A stretch of DNA of 64,000 bases, from assembly GCA_024743195.1 (NCBI GenBank), contig JANSXE010000003.1, positions 310,001 through 374,000 of the forward strand. Direction: 5' to 3'. A program made the position numbers and the translations under genes. A model generated the notes under the pieces. It made no database searches, was not told the origin of the DNA, and saw only the letters and a program-made list of their open reading frames with translations. Within the stretch, counting starts at the first letter, position 1; each line of letters opens with the position of its first letter. The stretch comes from Alphaproteobacteria bacterium (GTDB taxonomy: Bacteria > Pseudomonadota > Alphaproteobacteria > UBA8366 > Aestuariispiraceae). Below, one piece after another: positions 27,283 to 51,363 of this stretch.

Positions 27283-27358
27283 CGATGCATACTCTGAGCG
27301 GGCGTCCGCGGATCCGGTCCGGGCGACCTCGGTCATCTTCGTGATTTTCCGAGTGTCC

Positions 27359-28477: not shown

Positions 28478-28486
28478 GGCGCGGAT

Positions 28487-30391: not shown

Positions 30392-30397
30392 GAAATC

Positions 30398-31702
30398 CTA
30401 GGCCCGGGACGGGGTTTGGGGAGGGGCGCCTAGTGGCGGCCCGGCATGGTCGCGCGTGATGGCCGACGTTGATGGCGCCGGCCGCCACAGCACCGCGATC
30501 GCAATTGTCCAGATCGTAAATTGCAGACTGATCCACCAGCTCTGCCAGACCCCGAAACTGGCGTTCGAGACGACGAACATGAAGGCGAGAACAGCGAGCA
30601 GGCCCGCCTTGCGGGCCCTCGATTGCGACCGATTGGCGCCCAAGGCTATCGCCGCACCGCCGTAAAGCGCTGCGAACAGCAGGGCCCCCGGCAGTCCAAG
30701 CTCCAACCAGACCTGCAGCGGGTTGTTATGAGGGTGCAGGGGAATGAACTCGGCCGCGCCGAGCTGCATCAGCGCGTACCATTGCGGAAGCTGTTGAACG
30801 GACGCGCCGAGGTAGTTGCTCGGGACGATCGCATCGGCTCCCGGCAGCGCCCGCGCGGTATCGAGACCCCACCCGAGCCAGCGGGCTTCGTGAATTTGTT
30901 CGATGGTGAACTGCCAGATCGAAACCCGATGCAATCCGGAACTGCTCAACCGCTCAAGTACGGCGATTGGAGCCTCGGGCGACCACGGAGCGGCCAGGAC
31001 CATCGTGACAGCGACTCCGGCGATCAGCACGCCCACGACCCTCGGCGCCAGCGCCGCAGAGCACAACACGGCCAGTCCCACCATGTAAGCAAGCAGCGCC
31101 GTTGTGCTTTCCGTCGTGACGATGGCGCCGCCGGCGAGCAACGCGATAACGCCGGCGCGGTAGTATTTTCCAGAGTTGATGAAGTGAGTCGCGAGAACGA
31201 GGGTGAGGGCGGCCAGACAGGTTCCGCCCACCTTGTACAGGGTAACGTCGACTGCGGGCTGTGATTCCGATGCGATCGCGAGAACCCGCGCGCCCAGCGC
31301 CTCACCCAGATGGAGAAGAATAAGAACTCCGATGGTCCCCAGAGTGCTGACGTGCAGCGCCTGCAGGGCGGTCTGGCGGGTCAACAGGTCGGTGCGCTCG
31401 ACGGCGGCCAAGGCGAGGGCGCCCAGCGCGAACAGAACGGGCAGGCGCGATATCCTGGTAGCGGTCTCGTCCGGGGCCACGCTCCATACGATTGAGGCCG
31501 CCCCCCAAAGGACAAGGCCCAGTAGGACGCCGCCGAGACAAATCAGGAGCCTGCGATTGAGTCGCTTGCGCGCGACAATGACGAGCGGCAAGACGGTCGC
31601 AAGGAACAAGCTGGTGAGCTGCACCGGCGCGAAGGTCGCGACGATCGGCGCGGCCGCCGCCAAGAGGGCGACCAGAAACGATGCAGGCGTAACGCGCGTC
31701 AT
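30398..31702 (-). CDS. O-antigen ligase/polymerase-like membrane protein
   Basis: Polytopic; C-terminal PLHPHNNPLQVWLELGLPGALLFAALYGGA matches the Wzy_C/WaaL H-N-x-x-L-Q motif. Confidence 0.82.
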   Translation of the reverse strand: MTRVTPASFLVALLAAAAPIVATFAPVQLTSLFLATVLPLVIVARKRLNRRLLICLGGVLLGLVLWGAASIVWSVAPDETATRISRLPVLFALGALALAAVERTDLLTRQTALQALHVSTLGTIGVLILLHLGEALGARVLAIASESQPAVDVTLYKVGGTCLAALTLVLATHFINSGKYYRAGVIALLAGGAIVTTESTTALLAYMVGLAVLCSAALAPRVVGVLIAGVAVTMVLAAPWSPEAPIAVLERLSSSGLHRVSIWQFTIEQIHEARWLGWGLDTARALPGADAIVPSNYLGASVQQLPQWYALMQLGAAEFIPLHPHNNPLQVWLELGLPGALLFAALYGGAAIALGANRSQSRARKAGLLAVLAFMFVVSNASFGVWQSWWISLQFTIWTIAIAVLWRPAPSTSAITRDHAGPPLGAPPQTPSRA

Positions 31703-31995
31703 CCAGGGCTACGCCTTCATCGCAAAAGCTTTCGGACACGCCAAACGAGCGCCGATCCCGCTTTGGCCGCAGTGCGAAAGGCCCGCAGATCGCGATCCGT
31801 TCGGTTTCAATCGATGGCCAAGCATTCCGGCTTTCCTCCAACGGAGCGGCGCCTTCGGATGGGAGGCGCATCCCGATATCTGGTCGGGGCGGTCCCTGAC
31901 AAGACAGGGTCGCCGACTTCACCTTATTCAGCCGGAGGCCGGCTGCAAGGTCGGCGTTAAGGCGCCATGCCGAGCCGCACAAAACGGATTGGTCG

Positions 31996-33954
31996 CTAGG
32001 GCCGTCCCGCCTTGGCTTTGACGTCGGCGCTGGATTCTTTCCGTCGGAAGACCAAAGTGGCGCTCGTGCACTGGGCGGGAAGGGTTCGCGTTCCCTGCCG
32101 CTGCGTCAAGTTCAGGAGCGCGGTCGCGACGGACAGGGCCCCGACAATAAGCACGAAGAGCACCCTGATCAGAATGCGTCTTTCCGGACCCGGATGAATG
32201 CGGCGTTTGACTTTCCTTTCAAGGCGCATCAGCCAGTGTTTCGTGCGCCCGCCGACGAACATCTTGGACTCGAGGCACCCCTCGGCCGACATCGGAAAGG
32301 CGCTCGCCAAGATGACGGCCAGCGCATTGGAATAGCCTTCGGCCAAGGAGTCGTCCGAGAGGTTCTCAAGGAAGAGAACGATGCGCCCGTTCGGCTTCAG
32401 CATAGCCATCGCGGCCTTCAGGGCCTGCCCCGTCATCGCGGGCGAGGTCGGATAGCTGTGGATGAGAATTTCAGAGTAGCACGGCGTCGGCTGCAGGCGC
32501 GCCTCGCGGATCACTTCGGCAATGGTGCAATGATCCGAGTGCGTTTTCTGGACAATAAGTCGGGTCGTGAAGGCCTGCATTTCGTGGACGAACAGACATG
32601 ACGCGTTCGTGCGGAGGACATCGCGCATCCATTGGCGCAGAGGAGCGTAATCGAGCCAATGCGCGTGTCGGATGGGCACGAACGGGGCGCTGATTTCGGC
32701 CGGAACCATCAACCGAACGAGGCGTCGCCAAATCGCTCTCAGGCCGACGCCCGTCGCATCGGGGATTTCCCTTTGCCAGTCGTGCAACCACGCCGGCGTC
32801 CGCAGTTCGGGCGGCGTCTCTTGGCTTCGAGCGCGGAGCGCCGCGCTGGTCGGCTTCGCCTTCTTCGCTTCGGCGATCCTTAGCAACCACCAGGACTGGA
32901 AGCCCAAGACCCAGTATGGATGATCCTCATGATCCCGAGGCGGTTGGTCGATCTGTTTCGTGAGGCGGTCGTGGAAGGCCGCAAAATCCGCCCGGGCTTC
33001 CGGCAGCGACGGGGGGGGATCCTCGGCGTGAAAGAAGACATCGACGTCGGCGTACTTACGATGCTCCTTCGTGGTCCACTCCTGCAGCCCGGCGGCGATT
33101 TCCGATGGAGCCGTTTTACCCCAGCGCAGGAATTCGGCTTCCTGTTCGTCCGGCTGTAATTCCAGCATGAAGAAGTCGTCCGAATCGTCGATGACCGTAA
33201 AGTCTCCGGACGGCACCAGGTCCGGCACAAATCCGTAGTCGCAATAGGAGGTGACTTTCGGCATCGGCCGCTCTGGCTTTATCGCCAGCATGAAGATCAA
33301 GAAATAGCGCCCGAGCAGCGTCGAATCGTCGACTCGCCAGTAGACCTGATTGTGCGTGATGCAGGTGATGTTCGATTGGGTCACGGTCTTGGCCGCCGCC
33401 GTTGGGTGGAGGTTGTCGAGCGTCAGGCGCACCATTTCCCTCGGCGTCATCGTCAGCACGCGCGCCTGCGGATCATACGCCTCCTCGAGCTGCTTCAGGA
33501 CTTCGTCCTGACCGCCGCGCAGCGACGGCGCCATGATGCAGGGCTCTCCGGCCTGCATGCGTGCGCCCAGATGAGCCAGGGAGCCGTTCGCCAGCACGAA
33601 GTCGGAGTTCATGAAAACGAAATAGGTTTCGGTCTGCGCGTCGCCGCTGTCCATAACCGCTCGGGCGTAGGCCAGTGTAAGCGTCACGCCGTACTGGCCG
33701 CGCGCGATCAGGTCATCGATCAATAGAAAGCGAACTGGGCAAAGGGCTTTGAGGTCTTGAAAGATCGCTTCCCGCTCGAAAAGCGGGACGCTCGCTTCAT
33801 CGGTGCAGATCAGGATCTCCAGGTCGCAAACCCGCGTCAGCGCCGGGATGTTTCCTGACGCCATGTATGATGGCAACGAGACGCGGCAGAAGTCCTCAAT
33901 GTATCGCCGTCCCCATATGGCGGAAATGAACTTCGCTTTCAAAGCGCTGGCCAT
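31996..33954 (-). CDS. large protein of unrecognised family (paralog of 43711-45672): GT-A-like N-terminal half, methyltransferase-like and hydrophobic C-terminal half
   Basis: SAIWGRRYIEDFCRVSLPSYMASGNIPAL, YGVTLTLAYAR, FVFMNSDFVLANGSL, NQVYWRVDDSTLLGR, SYCDYGFVPDLVPSG shared with the paralog. Start MASALKAKF at 33954. Confidence 0.75.
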   Translation of the reverse strand: MASALKAKFISAIWGRRYIEDFCRVSLPSYMASGNIPALTRVCDLEILICTDEASVPLFEREAIFQDLKALCPVRFLLIDDLIARGQYGVTLTLAYARAVMDSGDAQTETYFVFMNSDFVLANGSLAHLGARMQAGEPCIMAPSLRGGQDEVLKQLEEAYDPQARVLTMTPREMVRLTLDNLHPTAAAKTVTQSNITCITHNQVYWRVDDSTLLGRYFLIFMLAIKPERPMPKVTSYCDYGFVPDLVPSGDFTVIDDSDDFFMLELQPDEQEAEFLRWGKTAPSEIAAGLQEWTTKEHRKYADVDVFFHAEDPPPSLPEARADFAAFHDRLTKQIDQPPRDHEDHPYWVLGFQSWWLLRIAEAKKAKPTSAALRARSQETPPELRTPAWLHDWQREIPDATGVGLRAIWRRLVRLMVPAEISAPFVPIRHAHWLDYAPLRQWMRDVLRTNASCLFVHEMQAFTTRLIVQKTHSDHCTIAEVIREARLQPTPCYSEILIHSYPTSPAMTGQALKAAMAMLKPNGRIVLFLENLSDDSLAEGYSNALAVILASAFPMSAEGCLESKMFVGGRTKHWLMRLERKVKRRIHPGPERRILIRVLFVLIVGALSVATALLNLTQRQGTRTLPAQCTSATLVFRRKESSADVKAKAGRP

Positions 33955-34374
33955 GCGCTCGCTCCCCCTAGCGCTGGATGAATCCCCCGCAACGTGCGCC
34001 TCGTTGCGCCTTTCAGGACAGCCGCAGCCACCCGTCGCCATGCGTCAAGCTGGCCACTATCTGCGCGAGCCGACGCGACGATGCAAGGGGCGTGTCCCCC
34101 GGCGGGATTCGCAGGTGCCGCCGCTGCGCGCCGAAGGGGCCGGGACCCCGTCCACAGCGAGGATTGTTATTTCCCGGCGAAAGCTCTATTGACGGTCGGC
34201 GAAAGATCCAAGCGACGCCTCGCACGATCCGGCAAAAGCGCGCAGCGCCACAGAACCAGCTCCGGGAGCGGGTCACGCGTTGGCGCTTCCCTGTGTTCTC
34301 GGGGCGGTAGCGTCAAGTGGAGACGCAGACGGTGTCCGCCGTCTCCTCAAGGCTGAAGAATGGGGTAGGGGCTG

Positions 34375-35247
34375 ATGGGCGCCGGCGTTAAGACGATCCA
34401 AGCGATCATGAATCTGTCTGAGTCCGGGCGCTTGGCGTACGGAGCGCGGATCTGCGACATTGGCGTCACGCAGCTCTTTGGCGCGGCGATCAAGGAGGGC
34501 GTGGTTTCCATGATGGAGTACTACGCGCGGAAGGCGCCGGCGGACGCGCGGGCGACCGTTCTGGACGCCTCGGAAATCGACGAGATTCGCGACGGCGTGT
34601 TCCTTGGACACTATCTCGAGCGCGCGGGCTTCGAGTACGTGGCGCTCGATATCTTTCCCGCGCCGCGCACGATCCCGTTCGATTTGAATGTGCATTCACC
34701 GGGACCGGCGCTCAAGGGACGTTTCGACCTGGTCATGAATCTCGGAACCACTGAGCACGTCATGAACCAGTTGAACGCTTTCAGCGTTATTCACGATCTG
34801 TGCGCGGTTGGGGGCGTCATGTATCATGACTTGCCATCGGAAGGTTATTTCTCGCACGGGTTCTTCAGGTACGACGCTCTTCTTTTTCGAAATCTGGCCG
34901 GTTCCAACGCCTACGAGGTCTTCGATCAATCCTTTTGCGCAGGGCTTTCAGCGGCGCCGCCCCCTGACCTCACAAAGGCCGGCGTCTCGGCCGAGGCTCT
35001 GTACGACGTCGGCGTCGAAGCGAAGCTTGTCAAAACGACGGATCGCCCCTTTCAAATCCCGATGGAGCAGTCGACCAGCCTCTCTCTGGAGGCCGTGGCG
35101 GCCGACGCGATCGATGGCGAGTACGTTGTGAAGTCGGAGGGGGTGTCCGTTCTTCCCGCTCCAGCCCGCGCAGAAGAGACTGCGGCTCCCAACGTTCGCC
35201 TGTTCGACCGGGCGCGCGGGGCGATGCGGAGGCTTGTCGGCGCATGA
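34375..35247 (+). CDS. methyltransferase-like protein (paralog of 38701-39579)
   Basis: FDLVMNLGTTEHVMNQLNAFSVIHDLCAVGGVMYHDLPSEGYFSHGFFRYD. Confidence 0.72.
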   Translation: MGAGVKTIQAIMNLSESGRLAYGARICDIGVTQLFGAAIKEGVVSMMEYYARKAPADARATVLDASEIDEIRDGVFLGHYLERAGFEYVALDIFPAPRTIPFDLNVHSPGPALKGRFDLVMNLGTTEHVMNQLNAFSVIHDLCAVGGVMYHDLPSEGYFSHGFFRYDALLFRNLAGSNAYEVFDQSFCAGLSAAPPPDLTKAGVSAEALYDVGVEAKLVKTTDRPFQIPMEQSTSLSLEAVAADAIDGEYVVKSEGVSVLPAPARAEETAAPNVRLFDRARGAMRRLVGA

Positions 35248-35441
35248 CGAAGGACGATTTCATCGGCTGGACGCAGCGGTGGACCGTCGCCAAGGGCGAT
35301 GTCGACTGAGACGCCCGACAGTCTAAACGAAATGGGTGCGTCCATAGCGATGTGGTTAAGCCGCGGTGCAGGGGAGAGGCTGGCGGAGTTCGTGCGGCGG
35401 GAGTCTCCGAAACGCCGGGAAAGCCGAGAGGGGGTTTACTG

Positions 35442-36959
35442 ATGCGCGAGATCGCCGAAACGGTGCGGTATCCTGGATCGGTTCCGGATTTAAGGCGTAT
35501 ATGCAACGAGATGCGCCAGGGGTTTGGTCCTGAGGAAACGGTCGGGTTCGTCTCCGGCAACTTCAACGTCCTGCACCTTGGGCATTTGCGGTTGCTGAAG
35601 TTCGCCTCCGAAAGCGCCGACCGCTTGGTTGTCGGGCTTAATCCCGACGGTCCGCGGGAGGTCACCGTGCCCTTCGAGGCCCGTCGGGAAGCCTTGGACA
35701 TGGTCTCGTTCGTCGATTGCGTTCTGCCGCTCGACCAACCCCTTACCGAGGCGCTCACGGCTCTGAAGCCGGACATCATCGTCAAGGGCGCGGAACACAA
35801 AGAGCATTTCAACGTCGAGCAGGCGATCGTCGATTCTTATGGCGGGCGGTTGATTTTCGGCTCAGGCGACGTCGCTTTTTCGGAAAGCGAGACGCCGGAC
35901 AGCGACTTCTCCCGCCAGCCTCCCGTTTCCGCCGTACCGAGCGAGTACATTGCGCGCCATTCGTTGGACCTGATCTCTGCGGGGCGCACGGTTGCGGCCT
36001 TTAGCGGCCTGCGGGTCACGGTGATCGGAGATCTGATCGTCGATTCCTACATCGCCTGCGAGCCGATCGGAATGTCGCAGGAAGATCCGACGATCGTCGT
36101 CACCCCGCAATCCGAGAAGCGATTTACGGGCGGGGCCGGCGCGGTCGCCGGGCATGCGCGAAGCCTGGGAGCGTCCGTGTCCTTTCTGACGGTTGTCGGG
36201 CGGGACGAGATCGGGGACGTGAGTCTCGATGGGCTCGAACAACTCGGCGTCCAAGTCTTCGGGTTTCGTGATCCGACCCGGCCCACGCCGTTGAAGCGCC
36301 GCTACCGCGCGCACGGCAAGACGCTGCTGCGGGTCAACGAGTTGCGTCAGCATGACGTCGACGAAACGGTCTCGCGCCGGATCGTCGAGGCGTTCGACGC
36401 CATCCTCGAGAAGACGGACCTATTGCTGTTTTCCGACTTCAATTACGGGTGCCTGCCGCAGGCGCTCGTCGATACGTTGTCCGCCGAGGCGCGCCGGCGA
36501 AACGTCATGATGGCGGCCGACAGCCAGGCTTCGTCGCAGTTCGGGGACATTTCCCGCTTCAAGGGCATGAACCTGATCACGCCGACGGAGCACGAGGCGC
36601 GACTTTCGATCCGGGATTTCAACGTGGGCCTGGCGTCCACCGCCGAGAAGTTGAAGGCGAACACGCAAGCCGGCGTCGTCGCCATAACGCTCGGGGGCAA
36701 CGGCTTGCTGGTGCGCGCCGAGTCCGACGGCGAGGCTTTTGCTGACAGGTTGCCGGCGCTCTGCCCCGTACCCGTCGATACGGCCGGCGCAGGGGATTCG
36801 CTGTTCACCAGCATGTCGATGTCTCTATGTACGGGAGCGTCGCCCTGGTTGAGCGCCCTGATCGGCTCCGTCGCCGCGAGTTGTCAGGTTTCGCGCATCG
36901 GCAACAAGCCGTTGCAGCAAACCGAGCTGATTGACGCTCTGCGCGGCGCGATGGCCTGA
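35442..36959 (+). CDS. bifunctional HldE/RfaE-like protein with swapped domain order (nucleotidyltransferase then PfkB kinase)
   Basis: N-terminal VGFVSGNFNVLHLGHLRLLKFASESADRLVVGLN (HxGH nucleotidyltransferase), DIIVKGAEHKEH; C-terminal VTVIGDLIVDSYI..GGAGAVAGHARSLGA..DTAGAGDSLFTS (PfkB). Confidence 0.88.
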   Translation: MREIAETVRYPGSVPDLRRICNEMRQGFGPEETVGFVSGNFNVLHLGHLRLLKFASESADRLVVGLNPDGPREVTVPFEARREALDMVSFVDCVLPLDQPLTEALTALKPDIIVKGAEHKEHFNVEQAIVDSYGGRLIFGSGDVAFSESETPDSDFSRQPPVSAVPSEYIARHSLDLISAGRTVAAFSGLRVTVIGDLIVDSYIACEPIGMSQEDPTIVVTPQSEKRFTGGAGAVAGHARSLGASVSFLTVVGRDEIGDVSLDGLEQLGVQVFGFRDPTRPTPLKRRYRAHGKTLLRVNELRQHDVDETVSRRIVEAFDAILEKTDLLLFSDFNYGCLPQALVDTLSAEARRRNVMMAADSQASSQFGDISRFKGMNLITPTEHEARLSIRDFNVGLASTAEKLKANTQAGVVAITLGGNGLLVRAESDGEAFADRLPALCPVPVDTAGAGDSLFTSMSMSLCTGASPWLSALIGSVAASCQVSRIGNKPLQQTELIDALRGAMA

Positions 36960-36960
36960 T

Positions 36961-37671
36961 ATGCGTGCGTTCTTGCTTGCGGCCGGGGTGGGCAGCCGCC
37001 TGCGTCCGATCACTGACTCGACGCCGAAGTGTCTCGTGCCCGTTCACGGCCGGCCTTTGCTCGCCTATTGGCTGGATTGTTTGCTGCGCGACGGCGCCGT
37101 CGATGAAGTCTTGATCAATACGCACTATCTGCACGAACAGGTAGAGGCCTTTGTGGCCGCCTCGCCATGGCGCTCGAAGATATCGCTCAGTTACGAGGAG
37201 AACCTGCTGGGAACCGCCGGCTCTATCAAGGCGAACGGCGCATTTCACAGGCATGAGGCTCTCCTCGTGGCGCATGCGGACAATCTGACGGAACTCGACG
37301 CACCGGCCTTTATCCTGGCGCATCGCGACCGTCCCGCGGACGCCGCCTTGACGATGTTGACGTTCCGGACCGACATGCCGAAACAGTCGGGGATCCTCGA
37401 GGTTGATGACCGAGGCTTGGTGCAGGGCTTCTTCGAGAAGGTTGAAAACCCGCCCGGGGACTTGGCGAACGCCGCGGTCTACATCCTGACCCCGGAGGTT
37501 CTGCAAACGATCGACGAAGAAGAGGGCCCCTTTATCGACCTCAGCACCGAGATCATTCCCAGATTTCTGGGGCGCATCTTCGCAACGCCTGCGGCGGGAT
37601 ATCATCGCGGCATAGAGACGGTCGAGGGGCTGGAGCGGGCGCATCGGGAGTTCACGCCGGGCGGCCCATGA
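36961..37671 (+). CDS. sugar-phosphate nucleotidyltransferase (HddC/RmlA-like)
   Basis: MRAFLLAAGVGSRLRPITDSTPKCLVPVHGRPLLAYWLD, LLVAHADNLT. Confidence 0.9.
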   Translation: MRAFLLAAGVGSRLRPITDSTPKCLVPVHGRPLLAYWLDCLLRDGAVDEVLINTHYLHEQVEAFVAASPWRSKISLSYEENLLGTAGSIKANGAFHRHEALLVAHADNLTELDAPAFILAHRDRPADAALTMLTFRTDMPKQSGILEVDDRGLVQGFFEKVENPPGDLANAAVYILTPEVLQTIDEEEGPFIDLSTEIIPRFLGRIFATPAAGYHRGIETVEGLERAHREFTPGGP

Positions 37672-37704
37672 CGGGCCCGCGGGTCATCCTAACTGAGAGG
37701 CCGT

Positions 37705-38727
37705 ATGGGCGAGATGAGCATCGGCGTCGTGATTCCTCACAGGAATCACGAAACCCTGCTTCCCAGAGCAATCGACCGCTTGCTCGTCGACGAGGCTGCG
37801 GCCCCGGATTCGGTTGTCATCGTCGATGACTGCTCCGACGCACCGGCGCGTGAGATCGTGCGCGCGTTGGCGGCGCGGTCCCCGAAGATCACGCTGATCG
37901 AGCTGTCGGAACACAAGGGCGTGGTCGGCGCCCTGAATACGGGCGTCGAGGCGGTCGGGACGGATCTTGTTCACTGTTCCGCCGCAGACGACACCGTGGA
38001 TCTCCGATTGCTGGCGTCGGCCCAGGAAGGCTTCGCCTTGCGGCCGGAAGCCGCGATTTACTCCGGGCGCACCCGCCTGATCTCCGACGTCGACGACCGT
38101 GACCTCGGGGTCATTCCAAGCCCATCGCCTTTTGCTCGCAACGGTTGGGTCTCGCCCGAGGACGCCCGCCGAACGCTGATGCGCCGTGATGGGTGGATTT
38201 TCGGAAATTCGAGCGTTTATCGTCGCGATCGGCTGTTGGAGGCGGGCGGTTTCGACCCGGCCTTGAGCAGTTTCTGCGATGGGTACGCCCAACGCTATCT
38301 GGCGGCGCGTTGGGGCGCGCTGTTCGACGAAAAGGCCTACGGAGCCTGGCGGCGAAGCGACACCGGCGTCGCGGCGCGAACCAATCTGGATCCCGTCTTC
38401 CTGCTCGACGTCGGCGAGTGCGCGGCCGAGCGGTTCCGGGCCAATGCGCCGGAGATCTTTCCGAGGGGCTACGCCGAGCGCTGGCTGCGGCGGTGGATTA
38501 GCGGCGCCTTGTGCTTCCAACTTGACCGCGGCGTGTCGGCTGGACTGCGGGATCCTGCAATACGCCGATCCGTCCCGGCGCTTCCGCTCGTCCTTGCCGA
38601 CACGGCCCGAAGGCTAGGCCCGCTCGGGACGTCTTTGGCCAAACTGCTGATCTTCGCTGGCCTTCGGCCGTGGGACGCGACAAGCGTCGCGGGAGCGCGC
38701 CTAGCCTTGCGATTCCGTCGGGGCTGA
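37705..38727 (+). CDS. glycosyltransferase family 2
   Basis: SIGVVIPHRNHETLLPRAIDRLLVD..VVIVDDCSD..ALNTGVEAVGTDLVHCSAADD. Confidence 0.82.
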   Translation: MGEMSIGVVIPHRNHETLLPRAIDRLLVDEAAAPDSVVIVDDCSDAPAREIVRALAARSPKITLIELSEHKGVVGALNTGVEAVGTDLVHCSAADDTVDLRLLASAQEGFALRPEAAIYSGRTRLISDVDDRDLGVIPSPSPFARNGWVSPEDARRTLMRRDGWIFGNSSVYRRDRLLEAGGFDPALSSFCDGYAQRYLAARWGALFDEKAYGAWRRSDTGVAARTNLDPVFLLDVGECAAERFRANAPEIFPRGYAERWLRRWISGALCFQLDRGVSAGLRDPAIRRSVPALPLVLADTARRLGPLGTSLAKLLIFAGLRPWDATSVAGARLALRFRRG

Positions 38728-39579
38728 GACTTCGCCGTTCGCTTCCTCATCGCGCTGGGCGGAGTACCCGTCCCGAAGATCGCCCGTAAAGGCTCCGACA
38801 CTGGTGCTTGTCTCGAGCGTGCCCATAAAGGGCGTATCCTGCGTCTTGCGGAAGACGAGGCATATGGCGATCGTCGGGACCTGGATCGCGTCCTGACGCG
38901 TCTCACGCTCATCCGTCCCGATGCGGCCGATACGGTCGGTGAGAACGGGAAAATAGATCTGATATTGTCGCGCGCCCGTGAAAATATTCTCGGCCCCTTC
39001 GCCCACGCCCTCGTACCACATATCGACGACTTCGTATTGGTTGTAGCCCGCCATGTCGAAGAAGAAGCGGCTCGTGTAGGTGAAATAGCCGTGGTCGACG
39101 AAGCCGACCGAGGGCAGAACGTGCATCATCAGCCCGCCCGGTTTAGCGGCTGAGTGTATGGCGTTGAAGGTGTTGATTTGATTGAGGATATGCTCGCTGG
39201 TCCCGCAATTGATCACGGTGTCATAGCGCCCGATCATATCCTGCGGCAGCGGGCGAATGTTCAAGTCGACCTGACGGGTCTTGTACCCGGCGGCGATGTC
39301 AATCGAATCGTATGTCATGCCCGCAAGCTCGAGCAACTCCCCCAGGAAGGCCTGGTTCAGGGCCTGCCCATCCGGACCCGTTCCCGAGCCGGCCGCAAGC
39401 CGCCCGACCACATCCTCGAGATCGGCCGGCGCGGGATCGACATGGCGCTTTACGAAGCCGCTCAACTGCTCCGCGGTGGACCCGTACAGGTTGGAGCTGC
39501 CGAAGTCGAGCAGAGCGCGCCCTTCGCCAAGAAGGCCGTACTTCTCCATCAACTCAATCGTGTAGTAGGACACACCCAT
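38701..39579 (-). CDS. methyltransferase-like protein (paralog of 34375-35247)
   Basis: ALLDFGSSNLYGS, YDTVINCGTSEHILNQINTFNAIHSAAKPGGLMMHVLPSVGFVDHGYFTYTSRFF. Confidence 0.75.
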   Translation of the reverse strand: MGVSYYTIELMEKYGLLGEGRALLDFGSSNLYGSTAEQLSGFVKRHVDPAPADLEDVVGRLAAGSGTGPDGQALNQAFLGELLELAGMTYDSIDIAAGYKTRQVDLNIRPLPQDMIGRYDTVINCGTSEHILNQINTFNAIHSAAKPGGLMMHVLPSVGFVDHGYFTYTSRFFFDMAGYNQYEVVDMWYEGVGEGAENIFTGARQYQIYFPVLTDRIGRIGTDERETRQDAIQVPTIAICLVFRKTQDTPFMGTLETSTSVGAFTGDLRDGYSAQRDEEANGEVSAPTESQG

Positions 39580-39722
39580 CGGTTTGCACGGCTCCTTGGA
39601 ACTTGCCTGGACGGCGGTTGGTCTTCGCGTTCGGGCTTCGTATGTGGGGCGTCCGCGCCCTGCTGGCCAGAGCCGCCCATTTCACGCGCAGCGAACGCGC
39701 CCCAGTAGCGATCGGGGCTCGA

Positions 39723-40928
39723 TCAGGTCGGATAGTCTGCGTCGAAGATCGAGCGCGTGCTGGCTCTGAAGATCGAGAGAAAACGGCCGCCCGCGTCGAC
39801 GAACGCCTGATTGCGCGCAATGACCTTGTCTTCGTTCGAAATCGACAGCGCCAATAGACAAACGGCAATTCCCTCCGTCAACAGGTTGGAGGACGGCGCG
39901 ATGAGCAGGTCCGAGCCCGGTAGGTAGCGCCCCTGTTTTTCCGGCGTGTCGTCCGCGACGAATTCGATCAGATCGGCGACGCCCATGAAATTGACGAAGG
40001 CGCAGGCGAGGTGGCCAGCGCCGAAAAGGGCGATCTTGCCGTGTTTTTCACGCATCGATTCGAGCTGACGCCGCAGGTCGGCGCAGGCCGGCGCGAAGCC
40101 GCGCGCGTAGTCCCCGAGAAGGCCGATTTCGGACGCGGCGGCGTCGCTTGGCGTCGGCGTCCGAGGGGCGCCGGTCTTGCGCGCGATTTGCACCAGACAA
40201 TTCTCGAAGGGCAGGGGATGCACATCAATGTACTGGCTCTCGAAACCGCCGAGCGGCGGCAACATCTCGTAGGTCGCCGGAGTCAGATAGAGCGAGTGCT
40301 CTTCCCAAATCATGCAGTAGTCGCGCAGTGTCAGATTCTTGGTGCAGTCCGGAATTTCCAGCATCAAAAGTCCGCCCGGCTTCACCAGAGCCGCCAGACC
40401 CTGCATGAAGGCGGCCGGATCTTCGGTGTGCTCGGAAATGTGTCGGACGATGAGCAGGTCGGCTTGACCGTATTTGGCGGCCACAGCCGCCATACGCTCC
40501 GGCGTGGTGCGAATCTGGACCGTTTCAATGTTGGCGGCTGGGTTGTCGATCTCAAAGTCCGACAAGTGCGCGCGCCATGTCCGCTTGACGCCCTTGCGCT
40601 CGAACCGCTCGAGCGTCGTGTCGTCTTTGTATGTGAGGCCCGCGACGATGGACTCGGGACCGAGCTCGAAGGTTTCCAGAATCTTCTCGACGACCTCGTC
40701 CAGATGCTCCTCGGGCTCGCGTGCGGCGATGAAAGCGGGCGGGACGAGTTTCTCGTACGACACCGGTTGGCGAAGTTGGATCACGCCGCAGCGACCGCAT
40801 TGGCCGAGTGCGAGCGCGACGCGCGCTTCGGGCGCCGTTGGATCATCGCGCAGAAACGAGGAAACTGGGTGCTCGCCGACGTCCAGAGTGTCGTCCAGCA
40901 GTTTGTCCTCACAGATCAAACAACGCAT
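39723..40928 (-). CDS. sugar C-methyltransferase-family protein with degenerate SAM motif I
   Basis: MRCLICEDKL..LGQCGRCGVIQL (CxxC pairs), PGGLLMLEIPDC, IWEEHSLYLTP, C-terminal KIALFGAGHLACAFVNF; TylCIII/NovU-like architecture. Confidence 0.82.
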   Translation of the reverse strand: MRCLICEDKLLDDTLDVGEHPVSSFLRDDPTAPEARVALALGQCGRCGVIQLRQPVSYEKLVPPAFIAAREPEEHLDEVVEKILETFELGPESIVAGLTYKDDTTLERFERKGVKRTWRAHLSDFEIDNPAANIETVQIRTTPERMAAVAAKYGQADLLIVRHISEHTEDPAAFMQGLAALVKPGGLLMLEIPDCTKNLTLRDYCMIWEEHSLYLTPATYEMLPPLGGFESQYIDVHPLPFENCLVQIARKTGAPRTPTPSDAAASEIGLLGDYARGFAPACADLRRQLESMREKHGKIALFGAGHLACAFVNFMGVADLIEFVADDTPEKQGRYLPGSDLLIAPSSNLLTEGIAVCLLALSISNEDKVIARNQAFVDAGGRFLSIFRASTRSIFDADYPT

Positions 40929-41285
40929 GCATCTCTCCGAAACAGACCGGTTTGGCGCCGGCAGCCCGATGGTCACCCGCCTCGCTGGCCGGGGTGCGCG
41001 GGGCTCCGATTTACGATTTGCCTGGGCGTATCAATCCGTTCGAGCACGGTCAACGCGGAGCTTCGCTACGGCATCGGATTTTCTGGCACACCGTTCAATT
41101 AGGAATCTAGATGGAAAGTCATCGCGGAGGTCATTATTCGCGAGCGCGAACCGCTTCGCGTCGCCGTTCCCGACGGCTGTAGTATGGCAAATACCCCTCT
41201 GGTCTGCTAGAGCCAAGCGTCGCTCGCCGCCGGTGTTGGACGCGCAACCCCACTGTGACAAGTGTTGGTTGAAGGAGTTAGTGCA

Positions 41286-41978
41286 ATGAGTATCGATCAA
41301 AGCGTCTCTGATGTTCAGAGCTTGATGCAACGTAAGCGGGTCGAAGGCCTGATGGAGGCGGTTTACTATTGTTATGGCTCGGCTGTCGTCGGAGATATTG
41401 CCGAGTTCGGAACAATGACCGGAGCGACCGCCTATGGCATAGGCGTCGCGATGCTCGCGGTGGAGCGCCAGTATGGCCTTCCGGCGAAGAACCTCGACTT
41501 GTATGACAGTTTCGTCGGTTTGCCAGAACCAGATCGGACGCCGGACACTGGCTCGCCGCATGTCACGCTAGGTCATTGGGCGGCCGGGGGGTGCCAGGGA
41601 ATCAGCGTCACGGAGTTGGACGCGATGATGCGCGAGGCGCTTCCGGAGGATCGCTATAGGATTGTTGAGGGCTGGTATTCAGATACCGTTCCCAGTCTGC
41701 CCGGCGACAAACGGTACGCAATGCTTCATGTGGACTGCGACCTGTACGGCTCGACGATGGATTGCATGGTCCCGCTTTTCGAGAAGGGCCTCATCTCGCG
41801 AGGCTGCGCCGTCTGTTTTGATGACTGGATGTGCAACCAAGCGGATCCGGCCTTCGGGGAGCGTAAGGCGTTCGCCGAATTGGCCGAGAGGTTCGACATC
41901 CGGTGTTCTGACTGGGGAGCCTACACGTGGAGCGGCGCCCGGTTCATTATTCATGACTATAACGGTTGCCCGAAATGA
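41286..41978 (+). CDS. TylF/MycF-family methyltransferase
   Basis: GDIAEFGTMTGATAYGIGVAM, LYDSFVGLPEPD, YAMLHVDCDLYGSTMDCMVPLFEKGLISRGCAVCFDDW. Confidence 0.85.
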   Translation: MSIDQSVSDVQSLMQRKRVEGLMEAVYYCYGSAVVGDIAEFGTMTGATAYGIGVAMLAVERQYGLPAKNLDLYDSFVGLPEPDRTPDTGSPHVTLGHWAAGGCQGISVTELDAMMREALPEDRYRIVEGWYSDTVPSLPGDKRYAMLHVDCDLYGSTMDCMVPLFEKGLISRGCAVCFDDWMCNQADPAFGERKAFAELAERFDIRCSDWGAYTWSGARFIIHDYNGCPK

Positions 41979-43042
41979 CGGCGTCAGAAAACGACGCAGC
42001 CGGGCCAGAGGCCCAGGATGGAGGCGCGGCTGGCCAAGAGAGTCTGCGCCTCGACCCCACGGCCGTTGTGGCGCAATGCCGTGCGGGCGTGGCCTCACGG
42101 GACGTCGTCATGGCGTTGGTGGCCGAGTTGATGCAGGCCGGTGAGGCTGTTCCGTTGGAGGTCGAACGCTGCGCGCTTGAGTTCTACATCGCCGAAGACG
42201 CCAGCCGGGTGGATTTGAAGCGCCGACTGTTGAGCGTCTATCGGGAACTCGATCGGCAACCGCCGGATGGACTGGAACAGATGGTGCGCGACTCCTTCAT
42301 CACGGAGGAGCGCGAAACCGACTATCAGGAGATGATGGCCGATTACGGCCGGTCCGTCGGGCAACAGGATATGGAGCCGGCCTTCCTGGAGGACTTGGCC
42401 AAGGTGCGGCGCTTCACGATGACGTCGGTCGAACGGCTGTATGCGCTCTGGGACGCCGTGCGCTACGTGGCGCGATCGGGATTGGAGGGAGACCTTGTGG
42501 AGGCCGGCGTATGGCGCGGCGGAAGCATGATGACGGCCGCCTTGTCGCTTCAGCGGTCCGGCGACATGACGCGCACTCTCTGGCTCTTCGACACGTTCTC
42601 CGGGCTGCCGGCGCCGGATGAAGAACTCGACGTCGACATCCTTGGCAACCGGGCCATCGACGGCTGGCGTCCGCGCGCGGAAAGCGCGGAGTCGTCCCTC
42701 TGGGCCTACGCCGACGAAGCCGACGTCCGCGCGAACATGGCCACTACCGGATACCCCGAAGGCCGGTTGCGCTTCGTGAAAGGCATGGTGGAGGAGACCG
42801 TTCCGAAGGAAGCGCCGGAGCGGATTGCTTTGCTGCGCATCGACACGGATTGGTACGCGTCCTACAAGCATTTGCTGGAGCATCTTTACGATCGGGTGAC
42901 GCCCGGAGGGCTGGTCATATTCGACGATTACGGCCAGTTTCTTGGCGCGCGACAGGCGGTGGACGAGTTCCGTGAAGCGCGTGGGCTCTCCGCCCCGATG
43001 TTTCGCGTCGATTTCTCTTGTCGGATCATGCCGAAATTCTGA
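41975..43042 (+). CDS. TylF/MycF-family methyltransferase with an N-terminal extension
   Basis: GDLVEAGVWRGGSMMTAALSL, LWLFDTFSGLPAPDEE, IALLRIDTDWYASYKHLLEHLYDRVTPGGLVIFDDYG; ATGA overlap with the upstream gene. Confidence 0.88.
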   Translation: MTASENDAAGPEAQDGGAAGQESLRLDPTAVVAQCRAGVASRDVVMALVAELMQAGEAVPLEVERCALEFYIAEDASRVDLKRRLLSVYRELDRQPPDGLEQMVRDSFITEERETDYQEMMADYGRSVGQQDMEPAFLEDLAKVRRFTMTSVERLYALWDAVRYVARSGLEGDLVEAGVWRGGSMMTAALSLQRSGDMTRTLWLFDTFSGLPAPDEELDVDILGNRAIDGWRPRAESAESSLWAYADEADVRANMATTGYPEGRLRFVKGMVEETVPKEAPERIALLRIDTDWYASYKHLLEHLYDRVTPGGLVIFDDYGQFLGARQAVDEFREARGLSAPMFRVDFSCRIMPKF

Positions 43043-43160
43043 GACGGCGGGAATGAGGGTCGGTCCGGCGGTTTGCGCGTCGGGTCTAGGGTGCGTCGGC
43101 GGACGCGGCGGCGGGTCTTGGGCGAGATTAAGATCGCTGGCGGCGTCGGAGGTGAAGCGT

Positions 43161-43679
43161 ATGATCGAAGCGGGGCGATACCGCCAGGTCGCGGACGAGG
43201 TGTTCTACGCGACCGACCCTTTCGCGACCGCGGGGCCGGAGGCGATAGAGTTGATCAAGCAAACCGCCCTGGCCTCGCCGCGGCGGCGCGCTCGCATCTG
43301 CTTTCATCCCGACCCGCAAGCCGCGGCGCAGGAAATGCTGATCGCCATGGGCGGGGCTTCCTACGTGCGACCGCATCGGCACTTCGGAAAGAGTGAAACT
43401 CTGACGGTCCTGGAAGGCGCTGCGACGGCGCTGTTGTTTGACGAGGCCGGAAGCGTCACGCAGCGCGCGCCCATGGGCAGCTATGGTTCCGGCCGGCCTT
43501 TCTTCTATCGGATGCCCCCCGACGTTTTTCACACGCTGATCTTCGAGTGCGAGATGTTCGTTTACCTGGAAACCACGACCGGCCCCTTCGACCCCGCGAT
43601 GTCCGAAGGAGCCCAGTGGGCTCCGCCGGAGAGCGATCCGGAAGCGGGGCGGGCGTTCCTCAGCCGCCTCGACGGCTGA
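43161..43679 (+). CDS. WbuC-like cupin-fold protein
   Basis: ARICFHPDPQAAAQEMLIAMGGASYVRPHRHFGKSETLTVLEG..FYRMPPDVFHTLIF; alternative GTG start at 43152. Confidence 0.8.
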   Translation: MIEAGRYRQVADEVFYATDPFATAGPEAIELIKQTALASPRRRARICFHPDPQAAAQEMLIAMGGASYVRPHRHFGKSETLTVLEGAATALLFDEAGSVTQRAPMGSYGSGRPFFYRMPPDVFHTLIFECEMFVYLETTTGPFDPAMSEGAQWAPPESDPEAGRAFLSRLDG

Positions 43680-43710
43680 CGACCGCGTTTGGCGGCGAGG
43701 AAGGCTGGGA

Positions 43711-45672
43711 GTGAAAGTGCGGGCGCCGAATAAGGGGCGACGACCGAAGGCGCGGATGATCGCGGTTATCTGGGGGCGCCGCTACGTTGAACTGTTCGCG
43801 CGCGTCGCGCTTCCGTCTTATCTGGCGCCCGGGAACATCCCTGCGCTCGCCGACCGTTTCGACCTGGATGTTCTCATCATGACGACGGATGAGAGCGTGC
43901 CTGTCTTCGAGGCGGAACCCGGCTTCGCCGCGCTCCAGGCGCTTTGCCCCGTCGAATACTGTTCGATCGACGATCTCGTGACGAACGGCCTCTATGGCGT
44001 GACCCTGACGCTCGCGTACGCGCGGGGCGTCCGGTCCGCCGGCGCCGACCAGACCGAGACCCTCTTCCTGTTTATGAATTCGGACTTCGTCCTCGCGGAC
44101 GGATCCCTCGCATTCGTCGCCGATCGGATGATGCAGCCAGACGCCCGGTGCCTCCTGGCCCCGTCGCTGCGGGTTCGGAGCGAACTGGCGACGCCTCGCT
44201 TGATCGAGGCGATCGACGAACAGAGCGGGGCGCTCGCGATGGCGCCGCGCGACATGGCGTCTTTCGCCTTCGGTTGCCTTCACCCGACCGTCATCGCCAA
44301 AACCGTCACGCAGGATCTGCTGGCGTCCAGGACCTACAACCAGATCTACTGGCAGGTGGACGACGCGACTTTGCTGGCGCGGCATCATCTCATTTTCATG
44401 TTGGCGATCCGACCTGAACGGCCGATGCCGGCGGTTCGCTCCTATTGCGACTATGGGTTCGTCCCCGACCTGATCCCAAGCGGCAAATGGATCGTCGCGG
44501 ACGATTCGGATGATTGTCTGATGCTGGAACTTCAGCAAACGGAGCAGGAGCGCGACTTGCTGTTCGCAGGCGGCCCGGATCCGAGCGCCATCGCAGCCGG
44601 GCTCGCGGAGTGGACCACGAAAGAGCAGCGTCAGGTCGCTCAGCGCGACATCGTCTTTCACAGCCGTGCTTTGCCTTCCGAGCTTGAGAGCGGGAAGTGC
44701 GCCCTTGCCGATTTCATGTCGGTGGTCCAGGCCGCGATGAAGAGTCCGCCGATCGATCATGTGGACCATCCATACTGGACGCCCGCGATTCGGGTCTGGA
44801 GTCTCTTGCGTACGGAATCCCGCGCAGGCGCCGGATCGCCGCCTGAACCGCCGCCTGAACTGCCGCAGGAGGTTCGGGCTGGAGCCGGGCCGGCTGCATC
44901 GGCGCGGTTCGGGGATCTGTACCTGCGCGTTCTCCGACGCGCACGGGCGCTGCGCGGCCAGGGAATGCGGGTTGCGGTCTGGCATTACCTTTGGCCGGAC
45001 TGTCAGTTGATGCAGGAGGCGATCGACGCGCTCGCCGTCGTCAACGGGGCCCGGGTGCTGGCGATAGATGCGGGAGACGGGGCGTTGTCCGTCGAAGCCG
45101 GTCGAACCCTCGGCGCGCACGTCGGGTCTTTGGATCAACTCTTCGACGCGCCGGGTCGGTTCGACGACAGGTACGACGAGATTTTAGTCCGCCTGCCAGG
45201 GGAGAGGGCGGAAGACGCCGGCCGCGTCGCCGAGAGCGCCGGCCCAATGCTCGCCGCGGGCGGCGTGCTTCGGCTCTGGATCCATCATCCCGGCGCCTGG
45301 TCGGGCCCGCCCAGCCTTCGCGAGCACATCCCGTTTCAGATCGAACGTCTGATCCCCTCCGATTGGCTCGGCTGGTCTTTAGGGACCCGCTATGTGGGCG
45401 GACGACTCCGCAGGCGTCTCCGTTCCATCGAGGCGGCGTGTCTGAAGGCGCTGTGGCCGGGAAGCATGAAACGGCTCCCGGCGTCTCTCATCGCGGCGAC
45501 GTTCCTGCCCATCGTTGCGTTTGCTGTCGCGATCGACAACAGGCGCCAGGTCGCCCGACGCGTCGACGCTCCTCCCGCATTCTGCACCAGCATCCTGTTG
45601 ACGATGCGGCGGCGTGTCGACGCTCACGGAACCAGTGAGAGCGGAGGCCGCGGCCGATACCGTTCTGCGTGA
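43711..45672 (+). CDS. large protein of unrecognised family (paralog of 31996-33954)
   Basis: AVIWGRRYVELFARVALPSYLAPGNIPAL, YGVTLTLAYAR, LFLFMNSDFVLADGSL, NQIYWQVDDATLLAR, SYCDYGFVPDLIPSG; GTG start proposed. Confidence 0.78.
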   Translation: MKVRAPNKGRRPKARMIAVIWGRRYVELFARVALPSYLAPGNIPALADRFDLDVLIMTTDESVPVFEAEPGFAALQALCPVEYCSIDDLVTNGLYGVTLTLAYARGVRSAGADQTETLFLFMNSDFVLADGSLAFVADRMMQPDARCLLAPSLRVRSELATPRLIEAIDEQSGALAMAPRDMASFAFGCLHPTVIAKTVTQDLLASRTYNQIYWQVDDATLLARHHLIFMLAIRPERPMPAVRSYCDYGFVPDLIPSGKWIVADDSDDCLMLELQQTEQERDLLFAGGPDPSAIAAGLAEWTTKEQRQVAQRDIVFHSRALPSELESGKCALADFMSVVQAAMKSPPIDHVDHPYWTPAIRVWSLLRTESRAGAGSPPEPPPELPQEVRAGAGPAASARFGDLYLRVLRRARALRGQGMRVAVWHYLWPDCQLMQEAIDALAVVNGARVLAIDAGDGALSVEAGRTLGAHVGSLDQLFDAPGRFDDRYDEILVRLPGERAEDAGRVAESAGPMLAAGGVLRLWIHHPGAWSGPPSLREHIPFQIERLIPSDWLGWSLGTRYVGGRLRRRLRSIEAACLKALWPGSMKRLPASLIAATFLPIVAFAVAIDNRRQVARRVDAPPAFCTSILLTMRRRVDAHGTSESGGRGRYRSA

Positions 45673-45733
45673 GCGTCGTTGACATCCAAGCGCGCACTTG
45701 CCATTAGCGGGGCGTCCAATCTGTGGGGGCACT

Positions 45734-46624
45734 ATGGCGAATGGCGGAAGTTTCCTTGTTGTCGGCGGCGACAGCTTGGTCGGGGGCTGGACGGTTCGCG
45801 CGCTCGCGGCGCGCGGCCATGACGTTTTGGCGTCGACACGCCGCCAAGAGACGCTTGGAGACGGCCGCGTGCTCGTGGATTTCGAGCGCGAGGAGACGTA
45901 CCGGGCGCCGGAAGGGGTGGACTACGCGTTCGTGATCGCTGCGGCGACCAACTATGAACGGTGTGAGACGGACCCCATGGCCAGGGTGATCAATGTCGAA
46001 TTGATCCCGCGGTTGGTTGGATCGCTGCTCGAGCAGGGCGTCTTTGTCACGTTCATCTCGACGAACTCCGTGTTCGGCGGGGAACGGCCCTGGCCCCATG
46101 AGGACGACCCGCATGCGCCCGGCATCGCCTATGCTCAGCAAAAGTCGGACGGCGAAGCCGAGATCCTTCGGCGCGCCGACGCCCTGGGCGCGCGAGAGCG
46201 GTTGAACGTCACGCGCCTGACGAAGATCATGGAGGCGGACACGCCGCCGCTGCCGACCTGGCTTTCGGCTTGGCGGAAGAATGACGTCGTCACGCCCTTC
46301 GCAGACCTGATTTTCGCGCCGATGTCCGTCCAGTTCGTCAGCGAGTCGCTGGCCACGATCGGTGAGAAGCGGGCGCCTGGCAATCTGCACCTGTCCGGGG
46401 CCGAGAATGTCAGTTATGTCCAGTTCGCCGAGGCCGTGGCGACCCACCTAGGCGTCGACCGCGCGCTGATCGAGGCGACGACCGCGACCGAGAAGGGCGT
46501 GCGCATCGCCTTCAAGCCGACCTATAGCGGGCTCGGCATGACGCGAACGACGGATGTTACCGGCCTGAAGCCTCAATCCCTGGACGATCTGGTTCGGGAC
46601 TTGTTCGGCCAACAGGGTCAGTGA
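45734..46624 (+). CDS. SDR-family sugar-nucleotide reductase (RmlD-like)
   Basis: SFLVVGGDSLVGGWTVRALAARGHDV, FVTFISTNSVFGGE, AYAQQKSDGE. Confidence 0.85.
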   Translation: MANGGSFLVVGGDSLVGGWTVRALAARGHDVLASTRRQETLGDGRVLVDFEREETYRAPEGVDYAFVIAAATNYERCETDPMARVINVELIPRLVGSLLEQGVFVTFISTNSVFGGERPWPHEDDPHAPGIAYAQQKSDGEAEILRRADALGARERLNVTRLTKIMEADTPPLPTWLSAWRKNDVVTPFADLIFAPMSVQFVSESLATIGEKRAPGNLHLSGAENVSYVQFAEAVATHLGVDRALIEATTATEKGVRIAFKPTYSGLGMTRTTDVTGLKPQSLDDLVRDLFGQQGQ

Positions 46625-46638
46625 GTCAGCCGCTTTGA

Positions 46639-47925
46639 ATGCAAGGGGGACTTGCGACGATGAATGTGACCGTGTCGCACCGTGAGACGTGCCGTCTGTG
46701 CAATTCGGCGAATGTCGAACGGGTCGTTGCGCTGAAGCCGATCCCTCTTTCCGAGGGCTACACGGACGATCCGGACAGCGCCCGCGCGGCGCCGCGCTAT
46801 CCGGTGGACGTGTATATGTGCGCGGATTGCGGACACGTACAGCACCTCGACGTCATCGACGCGAAGAATCTCTGGAACTCCTACACCTATTATTCGGGGG
46901 AAGCGAAAGGCATGCCGGAACACTTCCGGCAGATGGCCGACAAGATCCTTGCAGCCGTCTCCCCGCCTGACGGCGCGCTGGTAATCGACATCGGAAGCAA
47001 TGACGGATCGCTGCTGCTGCCGTTCAAGGAGCGGGGGTTCCGCGTGCTTGGCGTCGACCCGGCCACCGAAGTCGCACGGCGGGCCAATGAACGGGGCGTG
47101 GAGACGTTCTGCGACCTCATGTCCTACGGTCTCGCCGAGAAGATTCGCGAGGAATACGGCCCGGCGCACGCCATCTGCGCCTTCAATGTCTTCGCCCACG
47201 CGGACGACCTCGGCGAAATGGTGGATTGCGTTCGCACGATGCTGGCGCCGGATGGACTGTTTTTCTTCGAGGCGCAGTACCTCCTGGACATCATCGACGG
47301 CGTTCTTATCGCATCGATTTTCCATGAGCATATGAGCCATCATTCCGTGAAGCCTCTAATCCAATTCCTGGATCGCCACGGGCTCGAACTGATCGCGGTC
47401 GAGCGGGCGCCGATTCAACACGGCTCGCTGATCGGAACGGTGCAGTTGAAGGGCGGGGCGCGGCCGGTGGAACAGTCGGTCCATGACCTCGTGGCGCTGG
47501 AGGATCGACGGGAGCTGGACAAGCTGTCGACGTTGCGAGCGTTCGACGCGAAGGTCGCCCAACTGCGCGACGGCGCCTCCAGGTTGGTCGAGCGGTGGCG
47601 CGCCGATGGCAAGACCGTCGCCGCCTACGGGGCCGCCCGAAGCGGGCCGACGCTCCTGGCTCAGCTCGGCCTGCGCGACGCCATCGAGTTCATCGTCGAC
47701 GACCACCCGCAGAAGGTTGGAAAGTACTCGTCCGGCGACGGCATTCCGATCCTTCCGACGGCCGAGCTGCTCGAGCGCATGCCGGAGTACACCGTGATCC
47801 TCGCCTGGGTGCACTCCGCGAAGATCATTGAATCGAACCAGGAGTATCTGGAGCGGGGCGGCCATTTCGTCGTCTTGTGTCCGGAGACCCGCGTCGTCGG
47901 CAAGGACGGCGACGTCAGGATCTGA
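46639..47925 (+). CDS. NDP-sugar C-methyltransferase (TylCIII/NovU-like)
   Basis: CRLCNS..MCADCGHVQHLDVID, LVIDIGSNDGSLLLPFKERGFRVLGVDPA, IFHEHMSHHSVKPL, VAAYGAARSGPTLL. Confidence 0.9.
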   Translation: MQGGLATMNVTVSHRETCRLCNSANVERVVALKPIPLSEGYTDDPDSARAAPRYPVDVYMCADCGHVQHLDVIDAKNLWNSYTYYSGEAKGMPEHFRQMADKILAAVSPPDGALVIDIGSNDGSLLLPFKERGFRVLGVDPATEVARRANERGVETFCDLMSYGLAEKIREEYGPAHAICAFNVFAHADDLGEMVDCVRTMLAPDGLFFFEAQYLLDIIDGVLIASIFHEHMSHHSVKPLIQFLDRHGLELIAVERAPIQHGSLIGTVQLKGGARPVEQSVHDLVALEDRRELDKLSTLRAFDAKVAQLRDGASRLVERWRADGKTVAAYGAARSGPTLLAQLGLRDAIEFIVDDHPQKVGKYSSGDGIPILPTAELLERMPEYTVILAWVHSAKIIESNQEYLERGGHFVVLCPETRVVGKDGDVRI

Positions 47926-47963
47926 CACGGCGCCGGGCGGCGCGCAAAGGTGGGGCGAAAGCG

Positions 47964-48647
47964 ATGAACGACACCCAACGCACGAAAGAAGCGCAATATC
48001 AGGTGATCGTCGAGGCTGCGGAGCAGCGCGGCGTCGAGCGCTTCGGTCTGCGCAGCAGCGAGAGCTGGTACGAGGATCCGAAGCATCTCGTCTTTCGGCT
48101 GTCGCGCTATAAGTTCGTCGCCAAGATGCTGCAGGGGCGCCGTCACGTGCTGGAGGTCGGCTGCGGCGACGCGTTCGGCATTCGAATCGTCCAAGCCGAA
48201 GTCGAGAACCTTACCGCGATCGATTTCGACCCCGTCTTCATTGACGACGTGAACGATCGGATGGTCGAGCGCTGGCGTTTTGAGGCGAAGGTCCACGATA
48301 TGCTGGAGGGGCCCGTTCCCGGATCCTTCGACGCGGTCTACGCGCTGGACGTTTTGGAGCATATCGAGCCGTCCGACGAGCGGGTCTTCCTGGAGAACAG
48401 CTTCGCGTCTCTGGAGCCAGACGGCTGCGCCATCATTGGCGTACCCTCACTTGAAAGTCAGGTTTACGCGTCGCCGCAGTCGAAAGAAGGGCACGTGAAC
48501 TGTAAGAGCGCTCCGGAGCTGAAGGCGTTGCTCGAGGAGTACTTCTTCAACGTGTTCATCTTCAGTATGAACGATGAAGTGGTGCATACCGGCTATCACA
48601 AAATGGCGCATTACGTTTTCGCGATATGCGCCGGGCGGCGTCCTTAA
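47964..48647 (+). CDS. class I SAM-dependent methyltransferase
   Basis: HVLEVGCGDAFGIRIVQAEVENLTAIDFDPVFI, FDAVYALDVLEHIEPSDE. Confidence 0.88.
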   Translation: MNDTQRTKEAQYQVIVEAAEQRGVERFGLRSSESWYEDPKHLVFRLSRYKFVAKMLQGRRHVLEVGCGDAFGIRIVQAEVENLTAIDFDPVFIDDVNDRMVERWRFEAKVHDMLEGPVPGSFDAVYALDVLEHIEPSDERVFLENSFASLEPDGCAIIGVPSLESQVYASPQSKEGHVNCKSAPELKALLEEYFFNVFIFSMNDEVVHTGYHKMAHYVFAICAGRRP

Positions 48648-48770
48648 CAGCCCCAGCGGACTCCTGCGGCGGTTGCCCGAGGCGGAGGTCGGAACGACGC
48701 CATGGTTGACGCGGGGGGGGCGGCCCTGCATGCGATACGCAATCGTGAACGACGAGATGGGACGACTGAG

Positions 48771-50335: not shown

Positions 50336-50347
50336 GGTGCTGATCTG

Positions 50348-51346: not shown

Positions 51347-51363
51347 TCACGGGGAGGGGAACG

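Follow-up and report, generated by a model that had tools for sequence, protein, structure and literature searches.

Bacterial polysaccharide loci often contain fewer recognisable glycosyltransferases than they have linkages to make, which raises the question of which proteins make up the difference. The locus considered here lies in a 64,000-nucleotide stretch of alphaproteobacterial DNA (contig JANSXE010000003.1, positions 310,001 to 374,000; the window), and the Pfam-recognised glycosyltransferases in it are one GT4 protein (at 27341) and two GT2 proteins (at 37705 and 62087). An earlier note on this DNA, made from the sequence alone, had remarked on this shortage and had suggested that two proteins of about 650 amino acids, here called P0001 and P0002, might be missing transferases or bifunctional glycosyltransferase-methyltransferases. 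We consider it likely that P0001 and P0002 are paralogous glycosyltransferases of an unnamed family with a GT-A fold and that they have pseudo-methyltransferase tails. If so, the family would supply such missing transferases in Marivibrio, Bosea, Bradyrhizobium, and Azospirillum, among others.

Both open reading frames were confirmed at the positions given in Table 1. The two products align over their full length (BLASTP, 39% identity across 657 columns, E 5e-132), a likeness so far above chance that they are full-length paralogs. All of the conserved blocks that had been listed for them are present, except that the EIAAGL of P0001 reads AIAAGL in P0002. As had also been noted, the C-terminal halves diverge: identity is 55% in residues 1 to 345 of P0001 and 21% in the remainder. 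Similarly, identity to the orthologs from Marivibrio halodurans is 67 to 68% in the first part and 32 to 46% in the second, so the conserved part of these proteins is their N-terminal ~340 residues (the N-domain). The frame of P0001 stays open upstream to 34041, but homology begins close to the ATG chosen in the earlier note, which makes that start a sensible one. A genome search found only these two copies in this genome. In a phylogenetic tree, each paralog groups with its own M. halodurans ortholog with 100% support, implying that the duplication is older than the species split; long direct DNA repeats were looked for and none was found, which likewise indicates that the duplication is old.

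The N-domain had been described as unassignable to a known family, and this is true of Pfam, NCBIfam, PDB, and PHROGs, in which the family is undescribed. Searches of P0001 and P0002 against Pfam, NCBIfam, and PDB sequences returned nothing meaningful even at E values of up to 1 to 5, family profiles gave only chance-level matches in PDB, and a PHROGs search gave nothing consistent. Literature searches turned up no account of the family or its gene module, and a CAZy family with neither a Pfam model nor a solved structure could still include it.

We turn to predicted structure. The full AlphaFold model of P0001 has a predicted local distance difference test score (pLDDT) of 90.9, with values mostly of 92 to 99 in the N-domain. 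Full-length Foldseek searches were swamped by methyltransferase matches to the C-terminal half, and the N-domain was hence modelled separately; the P0002 N-domain alone reached a pLDDT of 96.2 and a predicted template modelling (TM) score of 0.93. In the models, its N-terminal Rossmann-like nucleotide-binding half follows the GT-A element order. The top 50 Foldseek matches of the P0002 N-domain in PDB were essentially all GT-A glycosyltransferases or nucleoside diphosphate (NDP)-sugar pyrophosphorylases and included, with E values of 1e-5 to 2e-4, K4CP, TarP, TarS, SpsA, XXYLT1, mannosylglycerate synthase, PcManGT, and RmlA/GMPPB. Among GT-A prototypes, K4CP (2z87) comes nearest to the consensus of the GT-A core (PMC7185993). 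Sequence comparisons point the same way. PF00535, the Pfam family of GT2, matched 14 of 72 diverse family members below threshold (best E 6.5e-4, the gathering score not being reached by any and P0001 and P0002 giving no match), compared with 6 members for the next family, and in profile-profile comparison with 14 families seeded from the locus both GT2 families scored highest. The fold class of the N-domain is well supported, and the domain most likely represents a family of the GT-A superfamily that is new.

Compared with known GT2 enzymes (E. coli K4 chondroitin polymerase 2z86/2z87, TarP, TarS, and SpsA), the N-domain is alike in its nucleotide-binding half and in the position of the DXD aspartate but differs in that the DXD is reduced to its last Asp, in motifs of its own (WGxxY, LPSLLAPGNLPAL, LHP, and DSD(D/E)), and in the lack of a significant sequence match to the window proteins. 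The GT8-type mouse XXYLT1 (4wnh) matches the fold over only ~160 to 180 Foldseek columns, and no member has a Pfam GT8 match. The predicted structure of A0A6J5PWU5, which comes from an uncultured Caudovirales phage and is uncharacterised, matched the whole N-domain (TM 0.85/0.86 over 334 columns, 17% identity).

Conservation across the 72 members (P0001 numbering) singles out a small set of residues. W14, G15, and N35 are invariant. The proposal that MNSDFVLADGSL is a GT-A-like acidic motif is supported by the profile-profile alignment, in which D125 of P0002, the counterpart of P0001 D118, falls on the GT2 DXD Asp. In the AlphaFold models D239/D247 sits where a helix begins and, by element order, could correspond to the catalytic xED residue of GT-A enzymes. 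A histidine of an FH motif (H309 in P0001, H317 in P0002), which may be the metal-binding C-His of GT-A enzymes, occurs in 48 of 72 members. As candidate active-site residues, D118, D239, and H183 would be expected to line one donor pocket.

Some of the evidence weighs against a glycosyltransferase. The PDB matches span ~150 residues of the N-domain with query TM scores mostly of 0.25 to 0.35, and this is evidence at the superfamily level only; the other half (approximately residues 150 to 340) matched no solved structure in the Foldseek search of PDB. The profile-profile signal for GT2 is weak in absolute terms, with a probability of 3 to 5%. Finally, the first acidic position of the DXD is absent, the sequence reading N-S-D, with N at this position in 35 of 72 members. 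Families in which the DXD motif is altered or lost are known among GT-A enzymes, as are GT-A pseudoenzymes (PMC7185993). The latter, together with the incomplete DXD, would also suit a noncatalytic GT-A-like protein that serves another glycosyltransferase as scaffold or chaperone. The example that invites comparison is COSMC, the chaperone for T-synthase. Neither the DXD nor the xED motif survives in COSMC, whereas 96 to 100% of a very diverse family retain D118, H183, and D239, and the N-domain is also found as a stand-alone protein; we give the scaffold explanation little credence.

The N-domain is in fact a modular unit. As a stand-alone protein it is encoded by open frames of 368 to 410 amino acids, and at one locus (L043) it is present twice in a single protein. 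Elsewhere it is fused to GT2 (L048), a class I methyltransferase (L047 and L072), a SASA esterase (L059), fasciclin plus HAD (L073), or WD40 (L083). A domain that stands alone and recombines with sugar-modifying enzymes would most simply be a self-sufficient catalytic unit. Its distribution is patchy: relatives were found in 19 of 99 related genomes, while the family is sporadic across the phylum (3 of 399 genomes). The relatives' loci that were named and fetched number 54, their taxa including Marivibrio, Bosea, Bradyrhizobium, Nitrospirillum, Azospirillum, Magnetospirillum, and Roseibium along with betaproteobacterial, Desulfovibrio, and Nitrospirales records. A plasmid search yielded one distant relative, annotated as a "hypothetical protein", on a Solidesulfovibrio plasmid, where it lies amid SIS, PfkB, split transketolase, APH, and methyltransferase genes. 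No family members were found in the phage records searched, and a search of viral contigs gave one distant locus. On this IMG/VR contig (L085), two distantly related members of the family are encoded, at 4899-6284 and 7631-8644.

The features that had been pointed out in the C-terminal half, a Rossmann/methyltransferase-like stretch, a hydrophobic stretch, and a CTSxxLxxRR end, are all real. A rival reading is that of a bifunctional protein in which an active S-adenosylmethionine (SAM)-dependent methyltransferase follows the GT-A glycosyltransferase and methylates the added sugar. The element order of this half is that of class I methyltransferases, with which its best full-length fold matches are made (it shares Rossmann topology with SpnF, RebM, and farnesyl pyrophosphate [FPP] methyltransferases), and methyltransferases are abundant in the locus. 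Furthermore, P0002 and its ortholog retain the SAM-binding (D/E)xGxG motif, as DAGDG and DGGDG, respectively. However, only 3 of 46 members, these two included, keep the motif. The beta-3 strand of the seven-stranded class I core is absent from the P0001 model, the stretch from beta-2 to beta-4 is only 15 to 34 residues long across the 46 sequences, and the Rossmann core contains no near-invariant residue. Pfam methyltransferase models gave marginal matches in only 2 to 3 of 37 members, and in the proteins from L047 and L072 the C-terminal module is followed by a further domain that is recognisable as a methyltransferase. With the SAM motif mostly lost, beta-3 missing, and no near-invariant core residue, bifunctionality is unlikely. 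Foldseek comparison of the AlphaFold models, which the earlier note had recommended, gave a GT-A/NDP-sugar fold for part of the N-domain and a methyltransferase-like C-terminal half. For most of the family an active methyltransferase was rejected on account of the missing motif (43 of 46 members).

The C-terminal half looks like a decayed pseudo-methyltransferase, and the tempting label "methyltransferase" is thereby corrected; P0002 is the sole protein of the window for which residual SAM binding deserves a test. This half also differs from class I methyltransferases in the hydrophobic helix inserted in most members. A hydrophobic segment near the end (mean hydropathy above 1.6) was present in 27 of the 40 members measured, which suggests association with the membrane.

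Last, the N-domain might make a sugar donor rather than use one, as an NDP-sugar pyrophosphorylase, but although RmlA and GMPPB are among its fold matches (RmlA and GMPPA-GMPPB having the nucleotide-sugar fold in common with it) and the locus makes nucleotide sugars, the sequence signal favours GT2 over NTP_transferase and the nucleotidyltransferase signature GxGxR after beta-1 occurs in 0 of 72 members, yet is present in the locus's own NTP_transferase at 36931, so that this identity is very improbable and was rejected.

For P0001 and P0002 as GT-A glycosyltransferases, we envisage the following. Both would be cytoplasmic or associated with the inner membrane, and they would be nonredundant, each adding a different sugar to the polysaccharide of the locus. 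The nucleotide-sugar donor would sit in the N-terminal Rossmann half of the N-domain, where D118/D125, the final Asp of the degenerate DXD, would probably hold a metal ion. D239/D247, H183/H191, and probably DSD(D/E) would either take part in catalysis or bind metal. Recognition of the acceptor would fall to the second, family-specific half of the N-domain. The C-terminal module, usually with its hydrophobic helix, would most likely position the enzyme at the membrane, a partner, or the acceptor and carry out no methylation. There is a precedent for such a layout in the O-polysaccharide glycosyltransferases of Klebsiella pneumoniae O4 and O7 (GT137), multimodule proteins with unannotated catalytic domains encoded in ABC-exporter loci (PMC11231755). 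P0001 and P0002 have the multimodule layout and the ABC-exporter locus in common with them; GT137, however, shows no likeness to known glycosyltransferases in DALI (PMC11231755), whereas the N-domain has a GT-A signal.

Table 1. Positions in the window of P0001, P0002, their domains and candidate residues, and the surrounding locus
Feature	Coordinates	Strand	Description
P0001	31996..33954	-	652 aa; GT-A-like N-terminal domain and methyltransferase-like C-terminal half
P0002	43711..45672	+	653 aa; paralog of P0001
P0001 residues 1-345	32920..33954	-	Candidate GT-A-fold glycosyltransferase domain
P0002 residues 14-362	43750..44796	+	Candidate GT-A-fold glycosyltransferase domain
P0001 D118 of MNSDF	33601..33603	-	Candidate metal/donor-binding DXD residue; D in 70/72 members
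P0002 D125 of MNSDF	44083..44085	+	Counterpart of P0001 D118
P0001 H183	33406..33408	-	Near-invariant His, 69/72 members
P0002 H191	44281..44283	+	Counterpart of P0001 H183
P0001 D239 of CDYGF	33238..33240	-	Asp in all 71 members having a residue there
P0002 D247	44449..44451	+	Counterpart of P0001 D239
P0001 residues 437-652	31999..32646	-	Class I methyltransferase-like Rossmann fold without SAM motif (pseudo-methyltransferase)
P0001 residues 591-617	32104..32184	-	Hydrophobic helix inserted near end of C-terminal fold; possible membrane attachment
P0002 residues 453-457 (DAGDG)	45067..45081	+	Remnant or residual SAM-binding DxGxG motif; absent in P0001
P0002 hydrophobic segment PASLIAATFLPIVAFAVAI	45478..45534	+	
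Polysaccharide locus with both genes	27341..63103	.	GT4, GT2, O-antigen ligase/Wzy_C, HldE-like CTP_transf-PfkB, NTP_transferase, SIS, SDRs, methyltransferases, split transketolase, APH-like kinase, ABC exporter

The genomic setting is consistent with a role in glycan assembly. The order of the locus is retained in M. halodurans, where the flanking sugar genes are mostly 62 to 86% identical and the two candidates are 51% and 58% identical. A neighbourhood survey of homologs, proposed in the earlier note, located the relatives in polysaccharide loci. Counted over the window and 31 relatives' loci, the window included, the HldE-like CTP_transf-PfkB gene recurred at 16 loci (the window plus 15 of the 31 relatives), transketolase subunits at 11 to 13, GT2 and SDR genes at 12 each, methyltransferases at 11 to 12, the APH-like kinase at 10, the ABC exporter at 9 to 11 with its permease at 11, and SIS and HAD genes at 7 each. 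Nearest-neighbour genes were enriched in the epimerase, methyltransferase, GT2, PfkB, NTP_transferase, and SIS families. A control with random genes of the window's own genome gave no comparable glycan set, its top list containing only two Methyltransf_25 matches from these families. Together with the GT-A fold matches and the subthreshold PF00535 signal, this setting supports the suggestion that one of the missing glycosyltransferases lies in the N-terminal region, and it is on these grounds that we infer transfer activity.

The company that the family keeps includes an HldE-like fusion of apparently reversed order, a split transketolase, an SIS isomerase, HAD, and an APH-like kinase, and because of this recurrence the N-domain might found a GT-A family devoted to an uncommon sugar derived from a heptose or made by way of transketolase. 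We put this forward tentatively, as a possibility that is on balance doubtful; if it were true, the transferase would be the hallmark of a class of bacterial polysaccharide that is widespread yet undescribed. The family profile, the key residues, and the linked gene module make both the transferase and its sugar directly testable.

Several neighbouring genes deserve mention in their own right. The HldE-like fusion (35352-36959, plus strand) has its cytidylyltransferase-like part first and its PfkB kinase second, apparently the reverse of the domain order in E. coli HldE. The genes at 51364-53128 and 54197-55845 (plus strand) encode a split transketolase pair, an HAD-like protein, and an APH-like kinase, and they recur across relatives and on the Solidesulfovibrio plasmid; their product may be an uncommon sugar, either branched or of longer chain. 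Two blocks lack a counterpart in the syntenic stretch of M. halodurans that was searched, although the flanks of that locus are conserved: a TylF methyltransferase pair (41262-43042) and an SDR/SIS/transketolase/ABC exporter block (48702-58659). The locus contains a second pair of paralogs, with weak Methyltransf_23 matches, at 34375-35247 (plus strand) and 38701-39579 (minus strand); these proteins group together and are found at 8 loci, the window included. Finally, a 763-amino-acid protein without a Pfam match is encoded at 58969-61260 (plus strand), two genes upstream of a conserved GT2-family gene, and has a 50% identical counterpart in M. halodurans.

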